Notes under the pieces: model-generated | Told to the model about the DNA's origin: nothing | What the model saw: the letters and a program-made list of their open reading frames with translations, nothing else | The model's database searches: none | Program-made: the position numbers and the translations under genes | Shown: piece after piece, positions 20,347 to 35,649 of the stretch | Position numbering within the stretch: position 1 is the first letter of the stretch | Layout: the number at the start of each line of letters is the position of its first letter | DNA from: Clostridia bacterium | GTDB lineage: Bacteria; Bacillota; Thermoanaerobacteria; Thermoanaerobacterales; Thermoanaerobacteraceae | NCBI GenBank assembly: GCA_012840485.1 | Contig: DULG01000046.1 | Coordinates: 1 to 44,287 of the forward strand | Direction of reading: 5' to 3' | Length of the DNA stretch: 44,287 nt

Positions 20347-21150
20347 TCAGACTTTGCCTTTTTCTTTCAAAATCTTATGTATACTATACCTACTCACCCC
20401 AGCAATAGAAGCAATATCTTTAATTGAAAGTCCGGTTTTTTCTCTGTATTTTTTTATTAAGTCATGCCATTCTTTACGTTTTTTAATTTCCAGATTTTCT
20501 ATATCTTTAATCCCAAATTCCATCGCCATTTCTTTAAATAACTCTTTGGCTTCTTCCGTACTCATTTTTTCTTCTTCAATGTCGATAAAAACTTCAGTGC
20601 CTTCTGTCTGCTCCATATATTTCTTAAACTGTTCTATAGCTTTCTTTTTATCATCAGAGAAAATGCCTAAAATCAACTCTGTATCTACAATTTGACACAT
20701 TTTATCATTATCGTTAAGATAACAGCTATAACTGCTCCACTTATAATCAGAAACTTTTTTCACTAGTCCCGCTTTTACCGGATTTTGATGAATGTATCTT
20801 ACTAATGCTATAACGTAACTCTCATCTTCAACTGGCTCACTTCTAAACCTATCCTGAAATAAATGCCCTGTCCTATCGTATTTTTTATTAAAATAAGAAG
20901 CATAAATTCCTGCAATCCTCTTAATAGAACTTGACAAATCTTCATTGCCTTCCTTGATCATCAAATGAACGTGATTGCTCATAAGACAAAAAGCAGTTAA
21001 ATAAAACTTCCCGCCTAGCTTTTTCTCTGCCAATATTTCTATAAAGTGCTTTTTATCCTCATCACTTCTGAATATATTTTTCTTTTCATTTCCCCGCAAC
21101 ATCACATGATAATATCCGCTCTTGCTTTTAACTCTTGACTTCCTAGGCAT
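20347..21150 (-). CDS. REP-associated tyrosine transposase (RAYT, Y1/HUH family)
   Basis: A 267-residue protein. The N-terminal ~170 residues are the Y1-transposase fold of the IS200/IS605 type: SGYYHVMLRGN, the HUH-type motif MSNHVHLMI, and the RAYT hallmarks YFNKKYDRTGHLFQDRF and LVRYIHQNPVKAGLV that hold the candidate catalytic tyrosine region. The C-terminal ~60 residues add a helix-turn-helix (GLSIKDIASIAGVSRYSIHKIL), an extension found in some Firmicute RAYTs. RAYTs nick single-stranded palindromic REP repeats and are thought to spread them. This gene is flanked by inverted REP copies (20290-20319 and 21176-21206) and sits between the exporter permease and the kinase genes. The frame is intact. 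Confidence 0.92.
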   Translation of the reverse strand: MPRKSRVKSKSGYYHVMLRGNEKKNIFRSDEDKKHFIEILAEKKLGGKFYLTAFCLMSNHVHLMIKEGNEDLSSSIKRIAGIYASYFNKKYDRTGHLFQDRFRSEPVEDESYVIALVRYIHQNPVKAGLVKKVSDYKWSSYSCYLNDNDKMCQIVDTELILGIFSDDKKKAIEQFKKYMEQTEGTEVFIDIEEEKMSTEEAKELFKEMAMEFGIKDIENLEIKKRKEWHDLIKKYREKTGLSIKDIASIAGVSRYSIHKILKEKGKV

Positions 21151-26120: not shown

Positions 26121-26158
26121 CAGACAAAGCAGACAAAGGGGACGGTTCCTCTTGTCCG
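26121..26158 (+). repeat. REP-like palindromic repeat, copy 5, with duplicated left arm
   Basis: The core AGACAAAGGGGACGGTTCC is preceded by an extra CAGACAAAG (26121-26129). The right arm is TTGTCCG. Together with copy 7, 13 bp away and inverted, it forms a BIME-like pair. Confidence 0.92.
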
Positions 26159-26171
26159 TTTATTTTGATTT

Positions 26172-26201
26172 TCAGACAAAAGGAACCGTCCCCTTTGTCT
26201 G
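26172..26201 (-). repeat. REP-like palindromic repeat, copy 7
   Basis: TCAGACAAAAGGAACCGTCC with right arm TTTGTCTG, inverted to copy 5. The two copies can also pair with each other into one long hairpin. It begins 12 bp downstream of the U-run that ends the predicted structured RNA. Confidence 0.92.
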
Positions 26202-26213
26202 TGTTATGCCAAT

Positions 26214-26582
26214 AAAAAAGTAAGGCTCGTAATGGTCTTCGCTTCAGCCAGTACAAATCTCTTCATACCTCACTTAAAAGGCAAGGTATTGCAAAACCCA
26301 TACTGACCTATGCTCGACTATTATAGATACCTTAGAAACCTTATGCACTTTGCATAAGACCTCCAGTCTAAGTACATGACGTACTTCGACCTGCGGCACC
26401 TATAATAGTCTTAGCTCGACTATAATACATCCTTTTTAGCCTTAAAATTAAGGCTCTACATGGACATATTATAATCTGCCCGCCGACTAGCATCCGACCT
26501 TTTGATCGAATACCAATCTTTGGCCGACCATCACAGAACTTGCGTCCTGTGATGATCTTGGCTCGACCATTACGAACCTTAC
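26214..26582 (-). ncRNA. Large structured RNA of about 370 nt, class not recognised
   Basis: On the minus strand these helices form. P1: 26582-26565 with 26237-26220, 18 bp. P2: 26557-26526, a 14-bp stem capped by a GCAA tetraloop. P3: 26518-26504, 5 bp. P4: 26476-26462 with 26432-26418, 15 bp, enclosing a 7-bp hairpin near 26452-26435. P5: 26410-26395 with 26331-26316, 16 bp, enclosing CUUAUGCA-AAG-UGCAUAAG and a second small hairpin. P6: 26308-26301 with 26253-26246, 8 bp, enclosing 26289-26283 with 26271-26265. All positions in P1, P2, P4, P5 and P6 pair on the minus strand, with about 10 G-U pairs; on the plus strand the same positions are C-A mismatches. That asymmetry identifies the transcribed strand. 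U6 (26219-26214) follows the P1 3' strand. All reading frames are broken by stops. It does not match tmRNA, RNase P, 6S or T-box hallmarks known to me. Confidence 0.75.
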
Positions 26583-26585
26583 ACT

Positions 26586-26591
26586 ATTATA
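26586..26591 (-). promoter_or_regulatory. -10 box of the structured-RNA gene (candidate)
   Basis: A perfect TATAAT on the minus strand ends 3 nt before the first base of helix P1 (26582), so transcription would start at, or a couple of nt inside, the P1 5' strand. The -35 region is A-rich with no TTGACA-like match at 16-18 bp, so the promoter would need an extra contact or is weak. Confidence 0.45.
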
Positions 26592-26715
26592 TTGCCCTTT
26601 TTGTCTTTTTATATTCATTTGTTTTTAAAAAAATTTAAAAAGGAATGAGATACCCACTTTTTTGGTTTAAGCTAAAGCTCTTAGTGAGAACAAAGGAACT
26701 GTACTTCATTTTAAA
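26592..26715. other. Intergenic stretch between the structured RNA and the UPF0173 gene
   Basis: About 125 bp of A/T-rich DNA. I see no ORF and no convincing terminator for the upstream metallo-hydrolase gene, so read-through into the RNA region is possible. Confidence 0.4.
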
Positions 26716-27393: not shown

Positions 27394-29133
27394 TCATAAA
27401 ATCTTTTGGGTATTGTCTAAAGCGTTTTTATATATTTCTTCTGGATATCCCAATAATTTTAAAATCTTTATTGCATTTCTGCTTTTTGACGGTCCTTCTT
27501 TCAATATATAATTGAATTTAATATCCTTGTCATTGACTTCTTCTTCAAAATGATAATTATCGTAATAATCTGCTGCCAATCTTGTAAGCTCTATATCATG
27601 TGTAGCAGCAACAACCAGGCAATTTCTTCTTATCATATATTTAAGCACTTCATTGGCAGCACTAATCCTCTCTATTGTATTGGTACCCCTGAAAATTTCA
27701 TCAAGAATACATAAAACTGTGACATTGTCATCTATCACATCAATTATCCTCTTTAGCGATTTAGCCTCAACCATAAAATAACTATCTCCACCAATAATAT
27801 TGTCAAGCGTTCCAATCGAAGTTAATATTTTAAAGTAATTAGAGGAATAGCTTTTTGCAAGTACTGTATAAAAAGTATGTGCAAAAATCGCATTAATTCC
27901 TATTGTTTTCAAAAAAGTTGACTTGCCGGACGCATTTGAACCTGTAATTAATATACCCCTATCCCTAACTTCTATAGAATTTGGAACAGGATCTTTAAGC
28001 AAAGGATGATAAATATCTTCCGCTTTTATGAAACGTACATCACTTTTTGTAAGTTGAGGCTCAGTACAATATTTTAAGCTTGCCCTATATGAAGCAAGAG
28101 CAATATAGGTATCAATTTTGCCTATTTCAATATATAGCTCCTGCAAATCTTTTAAATGCTTATTTATCAAATTAGCAGCTTCATAAAAGCCTATAGGCTC
28201 CATCAAAAAAATTATACTAAAAAATCCAGTTATACCCAAATTGTCAGCTACCCCTGTACTATTGCTTAAATAATCTAGATAGTTGAGGTTTCGTCTAATA
28301 ATTTTCGTATTGTTGTATGGATCTTTTAATCTTTCAATATCAAATTCTGGATTACCGTCGCTTTCTTTAATTATATTCTTTGCACAGGATATAAGTTTTA
28401 ATACATATTTAAATGTCATCATTTCCGAATATATCTTATATTTTGTACTAGAATATATCATGCTATTAGAAATAAGCAGCAACATTAACATAAATATACC
28501 TGCACCGGGATTAACAAAAATAATTATCAGAGGAGATATTATAAGTAAAAATACTAAAAGCTTATATAAAAGTACCGGATTGCTGGTAATTTTTATGCCA
28601 TTCCATAAAAATTCTGTAACATCCTCTTTTGGATCTTTCCCAAGAAAATGAAGATACAATTGAATTCTCTTCGCAAAATCATTGTTTTTCATAAAATTAT
28701 TTATAATTTCGCTTCTACCTTCTAATTCTTTCTTGTCATAAACCGGGTTTCTTAAAAGGTTATATAGATACTGCTGACCTGGATTTGACATGGTATGATC
28801 AAGTTTTCCAAAAACAAAGTCCATATCCAAATCTCTCCATGTTATGTCATCTATATTTGAAGAATTTCTACTATCTAATAAAAGAATATCATATAGCTTT
28901 TTAATAAACTCAAAGTTTCGCTTTTCCACATGTTCTTTTCCCCATTGTTCTTCAATCTTTTCTTTTATTTCTTTTATTTTTGCCGTTTTTTTGTAGTTAT
29001 TTATGATGAAAATAAGGATTATTGCTACAAAAAGTAATAGAAAAAATAAAGGGTTCACCTCAAAGCCTAATATTAATCCTCCACCTATTAAAATTACATA
29101 TAGAATCTCTAATACCATCTCATTGTTAAACAC
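27394..29133 (-). CDS. Membrane-anchored MutS-family ATPase
   Basis: A 579-residue protein. Two transmembrane helices near the N-terminus (about 9-45) and another hydrophobic pair near 190-225 enclose soluble segments. A MutS core and domain V follow, with Walker A ITGSNASGKST, Walker B LCILDEIFRGTN and the switch histidine in AATHDIE. The mismatch-recognition and clamp parts of MutS are not recognisable and the size is about two-thirds of MutS, so it is not MutS1 or MutS2. Membrane MutS-like proteins occur in Firmicutes and Bacteroidetes with no known role. It lies between argS and the UPF0173 gene. Confidence 0.85.
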   Translation of the reverse strand: MFNNEMVLEILYVILIGGGLILGFEVNPLFFLLLFVAIILIFIINNYKKTAKIKEIKEKIEEQWGKEHVEKRNFEFIKKLYDILLLDSRNSSNIDDITWRDLDMDFVFGKLDHTMSNPGQQYLYNLLRNPVYDKKELEGRSEIINNFMKNNDFAKRIQLYLHFLGKDPKEDVTEFLWNGIKITSNPVLLYKLLVFLLIISPLIIIFVNPGAGIFMLMLLLISNSMIYSSTKYKIYSEMMTFKYVLKLISCAKNIIKESDGNPEFDIERLKDPYNNTKIIRRNLNYLDYLSNSTGVADNLGITGFFSIIFLMEPIGFYEAANLINKHLKDLQELYIEIGKIDTYIALASYRASLKYCTEPQLTKSDVRFIKAEDIYHPLLKDPVPNSIEVRDRGILITGSNASGKSTFLKTIGINAIFAHTFYTVLAKSYSSNYFKILTSIGTLDNIIGGDSYFMVEAKSLKRIIDVIDDNVTVLCILDEIFRGTNTIERISAANEVLKYMIRRNCLVVAATHDIELTRLAADYYDNYHFEEEVNDKDIKFNYILKEGPSKSRNAIKILKLLGYPEEIYKNALDNTQKIL

Positions 29134-32533: not shown

Positions 32534-32731
32534 TTAGAAGGTGGTATTTCTGTTGTTATAATTTTCTACAAGCATTTTTTCTGCTTTTTCGATTGCAAGT
32601 TTTACAAGATTACCGCAATTTCTAGAAGAAACACTTCCCCAACCTTCCTTCATTACTGTGTCGTAAACGCCGAGTTCTTTAGCCAACTCATATTTAAGCT
32701 GGTCAGACATTAAGCCTCTGCGTCTACCCAT
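32534..32731 (-). CDS. Alpha/beta-type small acid-soluble spore protein
   Basis: A 65-residue DNA-binding protein that coats and protects spore DNA. Both family signatures are present: [13 protein letters not shown], which holds the germination-protease (GPR) cleavage region, and [23 protein letters not shown]. The start is the ATG after GAAGGAGGG. A CAAAATA box on the minus strand (32768-32762), with ACATA 17 bp upstream, is a candidate forespore (sigma-G-like) promoter. It follows sleB-ypeB by 65 bp. Confidence 0.95.
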
Positions 32732-32761
32732 TTTTATTCCCTCCTTCTTTTGCCCTACAAT

Positions 32762-32790
32762 TATTTTGCACTTTAAAAGCACTTTTATGT
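32762..32790 (-). promoter_or_regulatory. Candidate forespore (sigma-G-like) promoter of the SASP gene
   Basis: ACATA (32790-32786), 17-bp spacer, CAAAATA (32768-32762) on the minus strand. The -10 is the same type as before sleB and gerA. Sigma-G -10 boxes are CATNNTA, so CAAAATA is one mismatch away. Confidence 0.4.
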
Positions 32791-32796
32791 TATGGA

Positions 32797-34131
32797 CTAC
32801 ATGGTCAAATCTCCATGTTCTGTTTTTATAACCTTTAAAATTTTTTCTTCATTTCCATTTAATGCATTTATATACACGTAAAATGTATCACCTTTGTATG
32901 TTCCTTTAAATTCATAGGCTAATACTTCTCTTCCTCCTTCTAAAGGAATAAGAGTCAATTTTATATCTTCTATCTTTAAATTTTTGCTTACCTTTTCTTC
33001 TGCTTCTTTTGCTGTAAGCTTTGGCTTTTCTAATTTTCTATCCGTGTGATTCATGTAGTAAGCTGTAGCATCAAAACCTATTATGTCTCCGTTGTCAAGC
33101 GCCACCTTTACCTTAACAATGTCTGGATATAAATAAACCTCATTTTGCACAGGGACAAAGTTAAATTGTATGCTGCCATCTGCTTTCATAGAATAAGTAC
33201 TTTCCATGTTTGCAAACCCATGCTTTTCTAAAAATTTTTTGGCATATTGCAAAGCTTGAGAAGGAGAAATATTTACTTTGCTTACCGTTCTTTGATCCAT
33301 CAGCCACACAACATGTCCACCTTTTCTGCTGACATTTATATACACTGACAGCTTACCAGGTGACTTTAACTCCACCCCATAGGCTTTTATTTTTCCATTG
33401 TTAGGACTGTATTTATTTTCAGACTCAATAGCTTTTCCATAAAAGTCTCTTGCTATTTGAACAGCTCTATCATAAGAAATTTCTGACCCGGTCAAACCCT
33501 TAGGAGCAGCTTTTGCCAAATTTTCAGAAAAAGGTCCGTCGTATATCAAAGTAGGATAATTTGTCATAGTCTGGTTTACACTGTTCATTTTCACATTTAA
33601 AATTTTGCTATCAACTTGCGCCATTTTCTGTGACCCTTGCTTCCTTAAATTCCCTAATTCATATCCTCCTTGAATTTTCTTTCTCAAATCTTGTAAATTT
33701 TTCCCCAAAAATACTGCATAATTATGTAACTTGGTAATTGTCTCTAAATCCTGCTGAGATAATTCTTGACCTGCAGCAGCCTTTTTTGTAAGACTATAGG
33801 CATAATCTCCAATTTGCGTTAAAAACTTGGAAGTATTGTCTATCTCTGGCTGTCCAATTGGCAATTGATTTAGGTGTTCTTGCCCTGAAAAAGCTTCTCT
33901 CCATATTTCATCTAAAATTGGAATAGTAGTTTTATTTGAAGAAGCTACCATGAGTTTTCCCATAGAAGTTTCAATATTTTCTACATTAGAAACCAATTGA
34001 TAAAAAGACCTATCATATTGAGCCTGCAAATACCTATGATAGGATATTTTTTCTATATACTGCCTATATCCCCATGCTCCCAATATCAACACTAAAATCA
34101 AAGCTAAAGCCGTAAATCCCCTTTTTATCAT
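32797..34131 (-). CDS. ypeB: Germination protein YpeB
   Basis: A 444-residue spore protein with an N-terminal transmembrane anchor (about 5-23), a coiled-coil-rich helical region to about residue 210, and three PepSY-like repeats in the C-terminal half (for example [17 protein letters not shown] and [10 protein letters not shown]). YpeB is needed for assembly and control of the cortex-lytic enzyme SleB. It lies 9 bp downstream of sleB; the pair is conserved in spore-formers. Confidence 0.95.
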
Positions 34132-34140
34132 TTTTTCACC

Positions 34141-34851
34141 TCACCTCGCAAATATATGACTACCTATTTGTGTTATAATTGGCCTGTTGAATATCCAGTA
34201 ATTTGTCACCCTCATGGCATTGTAATAATACAAAGCGCCACCACTGGGGTCCCATCCAGCGATAGCATCCCTTGCTGCCATTATACTTTCCCTTGTCGGT
34301 GGCAACCACATTTGGCCGTCTTCTACAGCAGAAAAAGCTCCCGGTTGAAATATAACATCGGCTATAGTTTTGGGAAACCTTGGGTCTCTAACCCTATTCA
34401 TCACAACAGCTCCAACTGCAACTTTTCCAATATACGGTTCTCCTCTTGCTTCCCCATTTATAAGCATTGCTAAAAGGTAAACATCGTCATTTGTGGTGAC
34501 AGAGGAAGAAGCCTGATAAGCCGCTAAATCTTGAGCAGTAGTTGTAAAACCTAAAGCTGCTTTTGTATCATCATCTACAATACCTGTAACATTAAGCCCG
34601 TTATATGCTTGAAATTTTCTAACTGCCAGCCACGTTCTAACCCCAAAAAATCCATCTACAGCTCCCTTATAATATCCCCAATCTTTAAGCCGTGCTTGAA
34701 CTTTGGCAACATCACTACCTGTATTCCCCCAATAAAGGTTAGACATAGCTACCTCAGTCAAATCATAAGCTGCATACTCAAAAACTCCTGTAACAAAAAT
34801 AACCAATATAGCTATTATAATTTTCATTCGCACAATGAAATCTAACTTCAT
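34141..34851 (-). CDS. sleB: Spore cortex-lytic enzyme SleB
   Basis: A 236-residue lytic transglycosylase that degrades spore cortex peptidoglycan during germination. After an N-terminal transmembrane/signal segment (about 10-28) comes a peptidoglycan-binding domain (about 38-95, GNTGSDVAKVQARL and GFFGVRTWLAVRKFQ), then the Hydrolase_2 domain (about 120-236) with LLAMLINGEARGEPYIG, which holds the catalytic Glu, and FQPGAFSAVEDGQ. AAAGGAGG precedes the ATG. Confidence 0.95.
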   Translation of the reverse strand: MKLDFIVRMKIIIAILVIFVTGVFEYAAYDLTEVAMSNLYWGNTGSDVAKVQARLKDWGYYKGAVDGFFGVRTWLAVRKFQAYNGLNVTGIVDDDTKAALGFTTTAQDLAAYQASSSVTTNDDVYLLAMLINGEARGEPYIGKVAVGAVVMNRVRDPRFPKTIADVIFQPGAFSAVEDGQMWLPPTRESIMAARDAIAGWDPSGGALYYYNAMRVTNYWIFNRPIITQIGSHIFAR

Positions 34852-34933: not shown

Positions 34934-34955
34934 AAAGCGCCCTTTAAGGCGCCTT
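34934..34955 (-). terminator. Terminator of spoIIR
   Basis: AAGGCGCC pairs with GGCGCUUU on the minus strand (one G-U), loop of 6, followed by ATTATTTT. It overlaps the spoIIR stop. Confidence 0.75.
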
Positions 34956-35579
34956 CCATGCCATTTTAAATTTATTGTAATATTTCTCCATAATTTCTGC
35001 TATTTTAAATTTAACTGGAGGTTTCCCCTTTTTTATAAGGTCTACATCCTCTTGAGATAAATACTTTACTACTTCTTCTGCGGTCTGTTCATCTGTAAAG
35101 CCATGAGTAGCATCAATAAAACAAAGAGGAGGAAATATTACACACCACCAATTTTTCCCTTCTCCATTACCTATTATTACCTTAAGTGCAGTATATCTAC
35201 CTGCGGGAAGAGTAATGGTTCCATAATATCGCGTTGGAAAATCAAATGTACCATAGGCAATTTTTACATTGTAATTTTTCCCTTCTTTATGAATTATTTC
35301 TTCTGCAACTATTTTAATTTCTCTAATATTTTGTTTTATAATTCTTTCTGAATCTTTTACATCTTTTACACCATCAAATTTAGGCGTCAAATCCACAAGT
35401 ATAGCATCTCTCACCTTAAGCTTTAATTGTTGGTCTTCTTCTGAATCACTGTTGGCAATAACATGAAACCTTATTAACTTATGAGATAAGTTTTCTTTTC
35501 TTAAATTTGTAGATTTAACTCCATAAAAATTCCCTATTCCTATGATTGCTAATAAAAACACTGCAATTAATTTTTTCAT
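34944..35579 (-). CDS. spoIIR: Stage II sporulation protein R
   Basis: A 211-residue secreted signalling protein made in the forespore; it triggers SpoIIGA processing of pro-sigma-E in the mother cell. The N-terminal signal segment (about 2-17) is followed by the family hallmarks LIRFHVIANSDSEEDQQLKLKVRD, GTFDFPTRYYG, PAGRYTALKVIIG and GKNWWCVIFPPLCF. The start is the ATG after GGGGGA; an ATG 5 codons upstream is itself the ribosome-binding site. It lies 70 bp downstream of gerAC. Confidence 0.96.
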   Translation of the reverse strand: MKKLIAVFLLAIIGIGNFYGVKSTNLRKENLSHKLIRFHVIANSDSEEDQQLKLKVRDAILVDLTPKFDGVKDVKDSERIIKQNIREIKIVAEEIIHKEGKNYNVKIAYGTFDFPTRYYGTITLPAGRYTALKVIIGNGEGKNWWCVIFPPLCFIDATHGFTDEQTAEEVVKYLSQEDVDLIKKGKPPVKFKIAEIMEKYYNKFKMAWKAP

Positions 35580-35649
35580 ATTTTTATCCCCCAATATAAA
35601 CTTTTGCTTTACTTAAAGTATTAACAGAAATATTAAAAAATATACTTCT

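Follow-up and report, generated by a model that had tools for sequence, protein, structure and literature searches.

The minus strand of the window (the whole stretch of 44,287 nucleotides analysed here) carries a multi-arm element of about 370 nucleotides. Comparison of homologues establishes that selection acts on its RNA fold, and the statistics of the upstream sequences place its promoter in the forespore sigma-F class, sigma-G also being possible. The results point to an RNA that was previously unlisted: it is not in Rfam 15 and no published description was found in the open-licence literature; an earlier description is not excluded. We consider it likely that the element specifies a free-standing, trans-acting structured RNA made in the forespore, probably serving as a scaffold or decoy for protein, the transcript, the partner and the function all being inferred or proposed. 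Sporulation is among the best-studied bacterial developmental programmes and has been described almost wholly through its proteins. If the reading is true, a conserved RNA of such size, with a forespore promoter and present in more than 100 genera, would be a missing part of it. There is thus a ready hypothesis on when and where the RNA acts, something that OLE and raiA RNA did not have at their discovery. Direct testing is possible because the family includes culturable thermophiles, and the alignment, the covariance-model recipe and the search pattern are sufficient to begin an Rfam entry.

Selection on a minus-strand RNA fold

Between positions 26200 and 26610, the minus strand has a minimum free energy of -189.5 kcal/mol, against -99.5 +/- 5.8 kcal/mol for 100 dinucleotide shuffles (z -15.6), while the plus strand of the same region reaches only -113.2 kcal/mol. 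An earlier, sequence-only reading had proposed a multibranched structured RNA from this strand, and the fold energy, the covariation among homologues and the lack of any Rfam match all support that proposal. Its 18-bp closing helix is present (strands GUAAGGUUCGUAAUGGUC and GACCAUUACGAGCCUUAC), its 14-bp stem with a GCAA loop and its helices of 15 and 16 bp lie where they had been placed, and a U6 run is indeed seen after the closing helix, at 26219-26214. The same reading had counted about ten positions that are G-U on the minus strand; the count is larger, 27 of the 150 pairs of the fold being G-U. It had also described the stretch as gene-free, correctly, as the element contains no ORF of 60 amino acids or more; a coding sequence is ruled out on this ground. 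The features are listed in Table 1.

Table 1. Features of the RNA gene and of its sporulation context (window coordinates)
Feature	Position	Strand	Basis
Forespore (sigma-F/sigma-G) type promoter: -35 GAATA, N14, -10 GGGCAATATA	26585..26616	-	9/10 consensus positions
Structured RNA gene, ~370 nt, closing helix to U-run	26214..26585	-	Fold, alignment, covariation, covariance-model distribution
P1 closing helix, 5' strand, 18 bp	26565..26582	-	9/15 alignment pairs changed on both sides
Junction linker P1-P2, GAGCCAA	26558..26564	-	Alignment; GRGC(N)AA theme common to six linkers
P2 hairpin, 14 bp, GCAA loop in window copy	26526..26557	-	10/14 pairs changed on both sides
P3 hairpin, 15 bp	26485..26518	-	10/13 pairs changed on both sides
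P4 arm: P4a proximal helix, internal loop, P4b distal hairpin	26418..26476	-	21/30 pairs changed on both sides
Junction linker P4-P5, GAGCUAA	26411..26417	-	Among best-conserved stretches; included in search pattern
P5 arm: P5a helix, P5c side hairpin, P5b main hairpin	26316..26410	-	Fold and alignment; GAGA loop on P5b in 26/35 family members
P6 arm: P6a helix, internal loop, P6b distal hairpin	26246..26308	-	Fold and alignment; GAAA loop on P6b in 25/35 family members
Second half of RNA, matched by first-third model (internal homology)	26300..26435	-	25.9 bits, E 1.5e-5
P1 closing helix, 3' strand	26220..26237	-	Fold
U6 run 3' of closing helix, probable termination signal	26214..26219	-	T-run at same place in diverged copies
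alpha/beta SASP, ypeB, sleB (forespore context genes)	32534..34851	-	
spoIIR (context gene; forespore, sigma-F regulon)	34944..35594	-	TIGR02837

Covariation among homologues, which had been named as a check on the RNA claim, was examined and is massive. RNAalifold applied to 35 aligned copies returns 145 pairs at -224 kcal/mol, and compensatory changes on both sides are seen in 106 of the 145. Paired cells amount to 97.5%, compared with 82.2% after shuffling and 31-43% after sliding of the partner; the covariation score is 0.582, compared with 0.267 and 0.09-0.14, respectively, and cells changed on both sides number 849 versus 223 in shuffles. The same fold is observed in copies as distant as those of Tepidibacter and Ectobacillus.

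The plan is that of a multi-arm star made up of the closing helix P1, the hairpins P2 and P3, a two-part P4, a P5 with side and main hairpins, and a two-part P6. Short inner pairs tie the linkers together, P1-P2 with P6-P1, P2-P3 with P3-P4, and P4-P5 with P5-P6. With the innermost pair of each of the six arms numbered 0, the mean frequency of wobble pairs is 0.76 at index 2, 0.82 at index 11 and 0.59 at index 13, i.e. at base pairs 3, 12 and 14, base pairs 3 and 14 being one helical turn apart. Intermediate values are found at index 10 (0.40) and index 15 (0.39, two arms), and no remaining index exceeds 0.14. Model R1, a covariance model of the 5' third only (there is no full-length model), has a further match in the second half of the RNA, indicating internal homology within the molecule. 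In P2 and P3, the outer loops are free to vary across the family. Of 72 diverged copies, 42 have a run of at least four T downstream of the closing helix; such a run is present in 12.6% of random 20-mers. Being longer than 300 nt, with a complex fold supported by covariation and an independent gene, the element meets the criteria for a “large ornate stand-alone non-coding RNA”.

Distribution, promoter and sporulation

By BLAST against 101 relatives, the RNA was located in the majority of genomes from the genus itself and from two sister genera, usually in single copy, with weaker matches in other families. A query with a distant copy gave matches in 96 of the 398 phylum genomes. In the species collection, scanning for an exact pattern yielded at least 119 loci, nearly all confirmed by profile. 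The hosts among the matches listed include Moorella, Acetivibrio, Thermoanaerobacterium, Caldanaerobacter, Pelotomaculum, Desulfofundulus, Carboxydocella, Propionispora, Lucifera, Pelosinus, Tepidibacter, Anaerovirgula, Symbiobacterium and Ectobacillus. R1 matches 163 of the 398 phylum genomes (115 of 266 genera), 20 of these 163 being classed as weak, and 40 of 150 genomes in the class of Propionispora; in the Ectobacillus family, the RNA is found in 2 of 19 genomes.

Some genomes contain several dispersed copies, which are 81-98% identical in a lenient alignment and have unrelated flanks for most pairs. Two genomes of the class of Propionispora (G451 and G490) have about half a dozen copies or more each, compared with the usual one. 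At L030 (1513-1612) and L148 (Caldanaerobacter subterraneus DSM 13054), a partial copy of about 100 nt around P4-P5, apparently a broken remnant, is present in addition to a full copy elsewhere in the genome. A contig of 4353 bp from a Pelosinus MAG (L137) has both ends inside an RNA copy and therefore closes on itself, which would reflect either circularity or collapse of the assembly at a repeat. One weak R1 match (G027, E 4.8e-4) lies in a family (f4) that has spoIVA and in whose sampled genomes the RNA is otherwise absent. A match in Saprospiraceae (L141) has no HMM match and was dismissed as chance.

No match to Rfam 15 (4227 families, gathering score) was obtained at the element, either in the window or at seven diverse homologous loci, in agreement with the sequence-only reading, which had recognised no known family. 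The same scans do detect tRNA, rRNA and c-di-GMP riboswitches in these loci. Known classes (tmRNA, RNase P, 6S, SRP, T-box, introns, OLE, raiA and others) are without a match at the element, and a permissive scan produced sub-threshold matches only, almost all of them at the neighbouring REP hairpin. This hairpin is a REP-like, near-perfect 27-nt inverted repeat (GACAAAGGGGACGGTTCC...) directly after the RNA gene (window 26130-26201); a REP-associated tyrosine transposase is also encoded in the window (20347-21150). As to a phage or plasmid origin, the RNA is absent from 50,697 phage and 72,556 plasmid records, the sole IMG/VR match (11 bits) being a chance one.

Upstream of the closing helix, a TATAAT box ending 3 nt before it had been noted earlier. 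The box is present; as evidence of a vegetative promoter it fails, for it lies inside the forespore promoter. The window promoter alone is not significant, with 15 comparable sites in 88.6 kb (both strands), and the case for it therefore rests on its fixed position in 67 diverged copies, pairwise less than 80% identical. Counting words upstream of these 67 copies without any prior motif brought out GAATA, GTATA and GCATA. GNATA is found in 39 of the 67 upstreams, compared with 6.2 after shuffling, and among the upstreams aligned on the -35, 82-84% have a GG at constant spacing from it, followed by A.A.TA. The resulting consensus is GNATA-N14/15-GGnnAnAnTA, that of Bacillus sigma-F being GYATA-N15-GGnnAnAnT, and the family meets the criterion for a promoter of the sigma-F regulon (GNATA-N14/15-GGnnAnAnT). 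We scored ten sigma-F positions in the copies, in shuffles and in control stretches: scores of at least 8 are reached by 97% of the 67 copies (14% shuffled, 9% control), at least 9 by 74.6% (1.3% and 0.7%) and 10 by 21% (0.1% and 0). A vegetative sigma-A promoter is ruled out, as TTGACA occurs in none of the 67 upstreams and no copy reaches 10 of 12 sigma-A positions. The same signature is displayed by spoIIR of the same genomes (GTATA-N15-GGTAATACTT), and it is reported that sigma-F promoters are distinguished from those of sigma-G by a G before the -10 (PMC3789822).

The sporulation gene spoIVA is present in 336 of the 398 phylum genomes and in 160 of the 163 that carry the RNA (Fisher p 9e-12, ancestry uncorrected); two of the three remaining carriers are genomes of 61% and 75% completeness. 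Most sampled genomes of the class of Propionispora lack spoIVA, and there it is found in 36 of 40 carriers versus 15 of 110 non-carriers (p 3e-18, likewise uncorrected for ancestry). Both sets together contain seven carriers without detected spoIVA. No copy of the RNA was detected in 176 of the 336 spoIVA-positive phylum genomes, about half, and thus either sporulation as such can proceed without the RNA or copies of it escape the model.

In the window, SASP, ypeB, sleB, spoIIR and gerXC lie on the same strand as the RNA and 6-10 kb away from it, at 32.5-36.8 kb. Across the family, clustered neighbours are common only within lineages, and no neighbour is constant by position or strand. Two genes from the RNA, a MutS-like protein is encoded (window 27394-29133) that has domains III (weak) and V only. 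The distance from the RNA to dnaA in the window's family is 6-9% of the genome; a general closeness to the replication origin is not supported, there being no clear bias across families (all distances were calculated by hand).

Proposed role in the forespore and its alternatives

Synthesis of the RNA in the forespore, and its stability there, are inferences, no transcript having been observed. We propose that the gene would be transcribed in the developing spore by sigma-F polymerase, and possibly by sigma-G polymerase too, into a trans-acting RNA of about 370-400 nt. The start of the transcript would coincide with the closing helix or lie just upstream of it, and its end would be the U-run that follows, so that both its ends would be locked in one helix. 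The fold is a star of six helices (P1-P6) with similar linkers, in which wobbles occur at base pair 3 and then about one turn out, at base pairs 12 and 14. Because the arms are repeated and share this wobble pattern, they may present one recognition element several times, which would suit a scaffold or decoy for protein; within the forespore or the spore, one protein could be bound along the arms in several copies, or as an oligomer. The scaffold or decoy step, taken alone, remains tentative and on the doubtful side: it rests only on the repeated geometry and no partner protein has been identified. It is quite possible, if short of probable, that the RNA is a forespore component in the form of a pseudo-symmetric six-arm particle, alone or with an arm-repeated protein, which would be made under sigma-F and kept into the dormant spore.

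The main rival is an RNA-only machine or particle, in which the arms pack via wobble pairs and GNRA loops, within or between molecules, and protein is secondary. We find it rather unlikely, but the conserved GNRA loops of P5b and P6b (Table 1) keep it open, and it is also favoured by the matching internal loops in P4 and P6, the conserved wobble pairs, the internal homology and the precedent of RNA-only multimers of GOLLD, ROOL and OLE (PMC12286853). However, no receptor has been identified, there are no tertiary covariation data, and the outer loops of P2 and P3 are free to vary. The forespore promoter class and the long, nearly perfect helices would also be compatible with a 6S-like regulator that modulates the switch between sigma factors in the forespore by binding a sporulation RNA polymerase. 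6S RNA is the precedent for a polymerase-binding RNA, its hallmark being one large open bubble in one long hairpin; the new RNA has many arms, no single long hairpin with a central bubble and no Rfam match to 6S, and we regard such a role as improbable.

Two further readings can be given hardly any weight. According to one of them, the folding would be relevant as DNA rather than RNA, in a mobile or palindromic element of the REP/MITE type, as might be suggested by the REP-like hairpin adjoining the RNA, the REP-associated transposase in the window and the dispersed copies in some genomes. Yet the wobble pairs are kept in one orientation, which DNA would not maintain, within a family the element is syntenic and usually in single copy, the flanks of most paralogues elsewhere are unrelated, and the promoter is conserved. 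A REP/MITE element would be recognised by numerous near-identical copies per genome that have their ends in common; these are not seen, and the RNA element is single copy in its own genome. The other reading, a cis-regulatory leader or riboswitch of the downstream gene, draws on the presence in the window of a lipoprotein gene downstream on the same strand, but no gene keeps its place and orientation next to the RNA outside a single lineage, and the structure is a closed one, with a promoter and a U-run of its own.

Comparison with known RNAs

OLE, ROOL and GOLLD are likewise large ornate stand-alone bacterial RNAs; they differ from the new RNA in architecture, and it has no Rfam match to them. 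OLE is about 600 nt long and favours anaerobic and extremophilic Gram-positive species. The raiA motif RNA (ModT), which has been studied in Clostridioides difficile (PMC11706538), is structured and widespread in Bacillota, as is the new RNA, seven diverse copies of which gave no match to its Rfam family.

In timing, the nearest known RNAs are CsfG and Bvs196/S357, both from Bacillus. Like the new RNA, CsfG is a non-coding RNA of endospore formers with forespore timing, which for the new RNA is a prediction; CsfG is a small RNA of less than 200 nt. Its restriction to the forespore, under sigma-F and sigma-G, is summarised in PMC9147052. Bvs196/S357 (hinT-ecsA) is a forespore RNA of 294 nt with a stable fold, under sigma-F and sigma-G, and its deletion alters the heat and UV resistance of spores (PMC9147052). 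Homology to the Bvs196/S357 region was rejected for the hinT-ecsA interval: the family profile has no match in the hinT-side intervals of nine Ectobacillus-family genomes, and when folded these intervals reach only some -74 to -87 kcal/mol per 320 nt. In Bacillus, the Bvs196/S357 RNA occupies the interval adjoining the HIT gene; in the Ectobacillus family (L235-L243), the interval beside the HIT gene contains repeats of the type AAATGAGGTGTCTCGA(G/C)CAGAGCA.
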